From the NCBI GenBank assembly GCA_030066775.1, contig JASJAY010000012.1, forward strand, positions 1-64,000: a stretch of 64,000 bases of DNA. Direction: 5' to 3'. The DNA is from Planctomycetota bacterium. Lineage in GTDB: Bacteria; Planctomycetota; PLA2; JAEUHO01. Position numbers and translations under genes: made by a program. Positions 2,993 through 3,734 of the stretch are shown one piece after another. How positions within the stretch are numbered: the first letter of the stretch is position 1; each line of letters starts with the position of its first letter. Below the pieces are notes generated by a model. The model had not been told where the DNA came from. It ran no database searches and saw only the letters and a program-made list of their open reading frames with translations.

Positions 2993-3098
2993 GGGTTGTC
3001 CTCGGGATTCCCGGGCGGAACGGCGCAGGGTAAGGCCGTCCGGGAGGCCCCCCAAACGGAAATCGGGCCCGACGGCGGCGCCGCGGGCCCGACGAAAC

Positions 3099-3187
3099 GG
3101 TGTCAGGACAGTTGTCGCCGGGGACGCCTTCGCGCGGTCCCCAGGCACGTGGGAAGGCCCTAGATGGGCGAAAAGTGTCCTGACACC
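3099..3187 (-). repeat. Structured inverted repeat between infC and rpmI
   Basis: A perfect 12-bp inverted repeat (GGTGTCAGGACA at 3099-3110, TGTCCTGACACC at 3176-3187) encloses two smaller hairpins. One pairs 3117-3125 with 3137-3146 with one bulged base. The other pairs GCCC 3157-3160 with GGGC 3166-3169. As RNA this could form a three-way junction. It lies in the infC-rpmI spacer, where E. coli keeps its L20 translational operator. The outer arms also resemble the dispersed palindromes (REP-like units) seen in some GC-rich bacteria. I noticed no second copy in this window, so either reading remains open. Confidence 0.6.
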
Positions 3188-3194
3188 AAGTTGG

Positions 3195-3734
3195 CTACTT
3201 CTTGGCCAGGAGCATGTGCATCCGGCGGCCCTCCATCCGGGGGGCCTGCTCGACCTTGGCGATGTCCTCGAGCGCCGCCGCCACCGCCTTGCAGTGGTTG
3301 CGGCCGAGCTCCTGGTGGGCCATCTCGCGCCCGCGGAAGAGGATCATCAGCTGGACCTTGTCGCCGCGCTCGAGGAACTCCCGGGCCATGTTGATCCGGA
3401 TCTCGAGCATGTGCGGGTCCGTCTTGGGCCGGAGCCGGACGGTCTTGAGCTTGGAGCGGTGCTGCTTCTGGCGGGATGCCTGCGCCTTCTTGCTCTGCTC
3501 GTACTTGTACTTGCCGAAGTCGAGGATCTTGCAGACGGGGGGCCGGGCCTTGTCGTTGACCTCGACCAGATCGAGCCCGCGTTCCTCGGCCAGCTGCCGG
3601 GCGAAGTGGGTCGGCACGCGGCCGTGGTTCTCCCCCTTGTCGTCGATCAGCTGGACTTCGCGGATGGTGATGCGTTCGTTGATCCGAGGCCCCGTGATGC
3701 GGGGCATCGAGTAGTCGCGCCTACGTCGTCGGAT
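3195..3734 (-). CDS. infC: Translation initiation factor IF-3, probably starting at ATC
   Basis: IF-3 binds the 30S subunit, prevents 50S joining and checks the initiator codon-anticodon pairing. The body from PRINERITIREVQLIDD through the N-domain, linker (DFGKYKYEQSKKAQASRQKQ) and C-domain (RPKTDPHMLEIRINMAREFL, FRGREMAHQELG) is canonical. The ATG at 3707 lacks a Shine-Dalgarno. Nine codons upstream, an ATC at 3732-3734 has a perfect GGAGG 8 nt before it and adds IRRRRDYS, the basic N-terminus expected of IF-3. Many bacteria start infC at AUU, AUC or AUA so that IF-3 represses itself, and I choose the ATC on that basis. The product would be 179 residues. Confidence 0.9.
   Translation of the reverse strand: MRRRRRDYSMPRITGPRINERITIREVQLIDDKGENHGRVPTHFARQLAEERGLDLVEVNDKARPPVCKILDFGKYKYEQSKKAQASRQKQHRSKLKTVRLRPKTDPHMLEIRINMAREFLERGDKVQLMILFRGREMAHQELGRNHCKAVAAALEDIAKVEQAPRMEGRRMHMLLAKK

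Follow-up and report, generated by a model that had tools for sequence, protein, structure and literature searches.

The 89-bp feature behind the infC gene of this planctomycete is very probably a miniature mobile element, made of two inverted transposon ends of the TIRYT type (Y1/HUH) that enclose no gene and sit 7 nt behind the infC stop codon. It belongs to a repeat family within its genome, one copy of which is full length and carries a transposase gene; copies of the family lie directly behind stop codons, and the family is absent from genomes of the same taxonomic family. The transposase of the full-length copy, on contig C165, appears to have spread the others. An earlier note on the window (the whole 64,000-nucleotide stretch of DNA analysed) had described a three-way-junction element that might be either an operator for ribosomal protein L20 or a REP-type repeat. 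The features of the window are:

3099..3187, no strand assigned: non-autonomous element, 89 bp, inverted dimer of two ends, 1 of 10 two-ended copies
3099..3119, plus strand: left terminal inverted repeat (TIR), 30.7 bits, more diverged than any other of the genome's 25 ends
3167..3187, minus strand: right terminal inverted repeat, near the family consensus GGTGTCAGGACACTTTTCGC (39.5 bits)
3090..3098, plus strand: left outer flank CGACGAAAC, fitting the semi-conserved flank consensus CG[AC]CAAnnn
3188..3196, minus strand: right outer flank AGCCAACTT (read on the minus strand), fitting CG[AC]CAAnnn
3195..3707, minus strand: infC (IF3); the element starts 7 nt past its native stop codon
2795..2992, minus strand: rpmI (bL35), the downstream gene
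3027..3055, minus strand: rpmI promoter-like motif TTGGGG-N17-TACCCT, lying between the element and rpmI, a degenerate form of the family motif

The perfect 12-bp outer stem described in the earlier note is present (arms at 3099-3110 and 3176-3187), and the true inverted repeat is longer, with 21-nt arms (3099-3119 and 3167-3187) that are 90% complementary and separated by 47 nt. The left outer flank is able to pair with TTGTCG inside the arm, and the right outer flank shares two bases with the infC stop codon. Folding of positions 3060-3230 gives a z of -5.2, which 0 of 200 shuffles equalled, and the element forms a stable hairpin of about -55 kcal/mol. Its minimum-energy fold is a single long imperfect hairpin with internal loops and not a three-way junction. 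A second strong GC hairpin (TCGGGCCCG...CGGGCCCGA, window 3063-3092) stands between the element and the promoter-like motif of rpmI; it overlaps the element's left flank, is followed on the minus strand by TTTCC, and is perhaps a weak infC terminator.

If the arm occurred many times in the genome, the earlier note reasoned, it would be REP-like. The exact 12-mer occurs 12 times forward and 12 times in reverse in the 4.84-Mb genome, versus 0 times in the reversed sequence used as control; with 2 mismatches allowed, matches number 76 + 64 versus 50 + 45 in the control and are mostly due to chance. A profile of 33 positions built from 25 sequences finds exactly 25 ends in the genome and 0 in 11 same-family genomes, and an 18-mer search of 58 relatives matched in only 2 distant genomes, once each with 2 mismatches, the control also giving 2. 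The suggestion of a dispersed palindromic repeat is thus borne out by these 25 ends, with one copy carrying a Y1 transposase. Six places with a single mismatch to the arm (C172, C202, C83, C72, C104 and C154) have no second half and were left out of the family. The ends, with consensus GGTGTCAGGACAC, resolve into 10 two-ended elements, 1 single end and 4 ends at contig ends, or about fifteen copies:

Two-ended copies: C48, C60, C130 (twice), C132, C147, C157, C165, C194 and the window
Single end: C79
Ends at contig ends, where the assembly is broken: C77, C134, C155 and C222

Apart from the C165 copy, the two-ended copies (nine, including that of the window) are inverted dimers of 53-89 bp without a gene. 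Among the four contigs that stop at an end, some have G/C-rich low-complexity tails resembling assembly artefacts. No empty site was found among the family relatives, none of which is of the same genus and whose infC-rpmI spacers look unrelated up to the promoter-like motif, and a literature search for the end sequence returned 11 papers, perhaps lists of primers, none with a title that points to repeats.

The full-length copy (C165:422-1564) is a 1,143-bp element in which 23-bp perfect TIRs (GGTGTCAGGACACTTTTCGCGCA) surround an ORF of 325 aa. The ORF matches Pfam Y1_Tnp (E 1.8e-6) and scores 63.4 bits against NCBIfam REP_Tyr_transpos, below the cut-off of 80. In an alignment of 14 members, which leaves out 12 of the 32 transposase loci, Y1_Tnp is found in 14/14 homologues, and both the HFH motif (H60-F61-H62) and the Y---NP motif (Y119, N123-P124) are invariant in all 14. 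The profile of these 14 proteins matches PDB 4er8, the solved REP transposase TnpA_REP, over positions 10-142 (E 3.3e-4). A helix-turn-helix is not found in the C165 protein at E<=1; HTH_23 is found in 3/14 homologues and Sigma70_r4_2 in 4/14. The C165 product is a candidate tyrosine transposase of the Y1 (HUH) type, and its family profile relates it to TnpA_REP.

The element is a further member of a kind already described, the TIRYTs or TIRtrons (Di Nocera, De Gregorio and Rocco, 2013; PMC3733652), which are relatives of RAYTs; TIRYTs have been placed mostly in TnpA_Y1 subclass 2.1 (Quentin et al., 2018; PMC6006769). The shared features are a Y1/HUH transposase with a Y---NP motif, a gene lying between terminal inverted repeats (here 23 bp and perfect) rather than GTAG REPs, and ends that also occur singly or as dimers at other places in the genome (here 25 ends, 10 elements two-ended). 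The ends here differ in lacking GGGGWSAS, the motif of the majority of described TIRs, although that motif is not strict for TIRYTs and other TIRs are unrelated to it (PMC3733652); the protein, at 325 aa, is longer than the subclass 2.1 median of 238 aa (PMC6006769); and the C-terminal helix-turn-helix of the kind is not detected in the C165 protein itself. In the literature searched, the name TIRYT is used only in these two papers, the available portions of which give no end-recognition mechanism for TIRYTs. The gene-less copies also resemble MITEs in being non-coding, 53-89 bp long and bounded by TIRs in common with a full-length transposase element of the same genome, but differ from them in that the transposase is of the Y1 type; no target-site duplication was seen in the flanks of the copies.

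In the window the element lies in a minus-strand operon that, with gene names taken from the translations, we read as thrS-infC-rpmI-rplT-pheS. The earlier note's placement between infC and rpmI was right in gene order, while the operon is actually on the minus strand; the gap between the two genes is 202 bp (infC end at 3195, rpmI start at 2992). The infC stop codon is native, the C-terminus ending at the same position in 11/11 family relatives. We found rpmI in 18 of 30 loci (own, 11 same-family and 6 others) and left out the remaining 12. A motif TTG[AC]C-N16-TAnCnT stands upstream of rpmI in 11/11 same-family relatives (loci L108-L118), 9 found by a script pattern and 2 by eye (TTGCC), which suggests a separate rpmI-rplT transcript in these genomes. 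The window has the corresponding TACCCT at 3032-3027 and a weak TTGGGG at 3055-3050; this -35 is degenerate, and a generic promoter scan reported no promoter there. Since the promoter-like motif separates the element from rpmI, the element is probably part of the infC 3' UTR, and if positions 3027-3055 are the rpmI promoter, the element falls outside the rpmI leader.

This arrangement bears on the L20 operator, in which an RNA structure between infC and rpmI would be bound by L20 to repress rpmI-rplT. In E. coli, L20-dependent control is located between these two genes, and the element matches that site in position. Position is what the two share; the element differs in being multicopy, with copies adjoining unrelated genes, in being absent from relatives (the arm, with <=2 mismatches, is in 0/11 same-family infC-rpmI spacers) and in being placed upstream of the promoter-like motif of rpmI, which leaves it out of the likely leader of that gene. 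Compared with Rfam, the sequence has no match that reaches a gathering score; relaxing the limit to E <= 10 brings up only four unrelated sub-threshold matches. The copy number, the absence from relatives, the Rfam outcome and the position led us to reject the operator, which we regard as extremely improbable. The other half of the earlier suggestion comes nearer, since the repeat behaves in a REP-like manner, yet the TIR-associated (TIRYT) kind is a closer fit to it than a canonical GTAG-type REP or REPIN moved by a classical RAYT, which we consider very unlikely. Extragenic inverted dimers of a short palindrome, together with a related transposase, are common to both. Against a canonical REP, no GT[AG]G or CGTC foot stands directly beside the palindrome in any of the 25 ends, where the flank consensus is CG[AC]CAAnnn, and on this missing foot we rejected it; the transposase is 325 aa long and falls short of the REP_Tyr_transpos cut-off, and its gene is bounded by long TIRs. 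Many REP families are also larger than the about 15 copies counted here.

A miniature TIRYT-type element might also have been domesticated, the infC copy being kept as an mRNA 3'-end stabiliser or as a terminator that uncouples infC from rpmI-rplT, and how the copies are built bears on this. In the nine gene-less copies the inner sequence is specific to each copy. Their inner arms (positions 19-28) agree between left and right at 78% within a copy versus 63% between copies (permutation p 1.5e-4), so each copy behaves as one palindrome; the copy on C147 and one of the two on C130 (C130b) are near-perfect palindromes past the 23-bp TIR. We infer that duplication of one end by fold-back, or joint maintenance of the palindrome, fits these copies better than simple internal deletion. 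The window copy looks old, because its inner arms agree least of the nine (4/10 positions) and its left end is the lowest-scoring in the genome. A stable hairpin 7 nt after a native stop, with a promoter motif of its own downstream of it and before rpmI, speaks for domestication. But no end in the genome is more diverged than the left arm (30.7 bits), the low agreement of the inner arms resembles decay rather than selection, and no terminator-like pattern was found on the minus strand. We consider domestication unlikely; what the element does at infC is probably incidental, although it may act at the RNA level on the 3' end of infC.

Transposon ends of this type recur in other planctomycetes. 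Transposase homologues at E <= 1e-20 are present in 44 of the 294 genomes of a phylum sample (own genome included), and in a second collection the named relatives are led by Planctomycetota MAGs. The closest homologue in the phylum sample (G207, 47% identity) is flanked by a related end, GTGCCGGACACTT[TC]GTCG, which occurs at 13 places versus 0 in the control; transposase and end appear to travel together, since the nearest transposase has the nearest ends. The window's genome carries a second TIR-transposase family (F2; the window family being F1), which has ends GGTACCGGGGAAAACTGC around a transposase on C9 (L030, L058-L077), and these ends, with up to 3 mismatches, occur at 14 + 11 places versus 0 + 2 in the control. 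Further distinct end families with transposases occur at 24 places in G102 (F3), 64 in G019 (F4) and 33 in G241 (F5), with a control of 0 for each. A third Y1 transposase of the window's genome, on C16 (L029), has 12-bp inverted repeats GGGTACCGGGTT.

The position behind stop codons is common to these families. With open frames taken from a G+C-by-codon-position rule rather than from annotation, 15 of the 25 ends of the window family lie no more than 25 nt past a stop codon that faces them, compared with 0 of 657 random positions, and the window copy begins 7 nt past the native infC stop. The corresponding counts are 10/20 ends (control 2/305) for F2, 12/24 (4/404) for F3, 18/37 (1/507) for F4 and 10/31 (3/454) for F5. 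For the most part REPs likewise lie at most 20 bp from the 3' end of an ORF, and some termini supply stop codons, according to PMC3733652; the end of the window family, read inwards, contains no stop codon in any frame. In the C9 family the distance from stop to end is exactly 11 nt for 7 of 20 ends, because the conserved flank AA can form part of a TAA stop. The G019 family (L241-L270) has a conserved outer stretch AA[CG]TGACGCA that carries stop codons, and its facing genes end 4 nt (9/37 ends) or 8 nt (4/37) before the core.

We tentatively propose, while thinking it somewhat more likely wrong than right, that TIRYT-type transposons may pick their sites by base pairing between 6-7 nt inside the end and host sequence outside it. 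IS200/IS605 and REP transposases use a comparable guide logic; here the guide would differ in lying inward of a short palindrome. For the window family, a possible guide pairing is that of TTTTCG inside the end with CG[AC]CAA outside: the two are complementary bar one common mismatch, and the flank varies among copies while the arm hardly varies. Such outer/inner complementarity is seen in four of five end families (F1-F4) from three planctomycete genomes and may be new. Tested in the best register against column shuffles, it gives p = 0.026 for F1 and 0.032 for F2, values that are not independent of the idea, which arose from these two families, and p = 0.006 for F3, 0.008 for F4 and 0.75 for F5, three families picked afterwards by the analyst from those with clear TIRs; F5 is without the pattern. 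The ends used were 25/25 for F1 (after two chance matches, in phylum genomes G050 and G057, had been taken out ahead of the complementarity and covariation tests), 20 for F2 (from the 20 of 25 places given loci), 24/24 for F3, 37 for F4 (from 30 loci of 64 places) and 31 from 33 places for F5. The outer and inner stretches show no covariation beyond column independence, and single ends as DNA fold no better than shuffles (z -0.5 to 0.4), so that neither covariation nor single-end folding speaks for a guide.

The C165 transposase most likely recognises the conserved end, a small GTGTC-AG-GACAC palindrome together with TTTTCGC, as single-stranded DNA, and would mobilise full and miniature copies alike. 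Immediately behind genes, copies may be either tolerated or targeted. The infC mRNA would carry the element as a stable hairpin in its 3' UTR, which could protect the transcript end or lower read-through, and rpmI-rplT would probably be transcribed from their own promoter downstream of it. A candidate ribosomal-protein switch is thereby removed, and its place is taken by a family of mobile repeats that is well bounded and has a candidate transposase within its own genome. Several planctomycete genomes carry distinct end families, at 13-64 places each, with a transposase of their own, which allows comparisons between families, or direct assays, of how ends are recognised, of the location behind stop codons and of the proposed guide.
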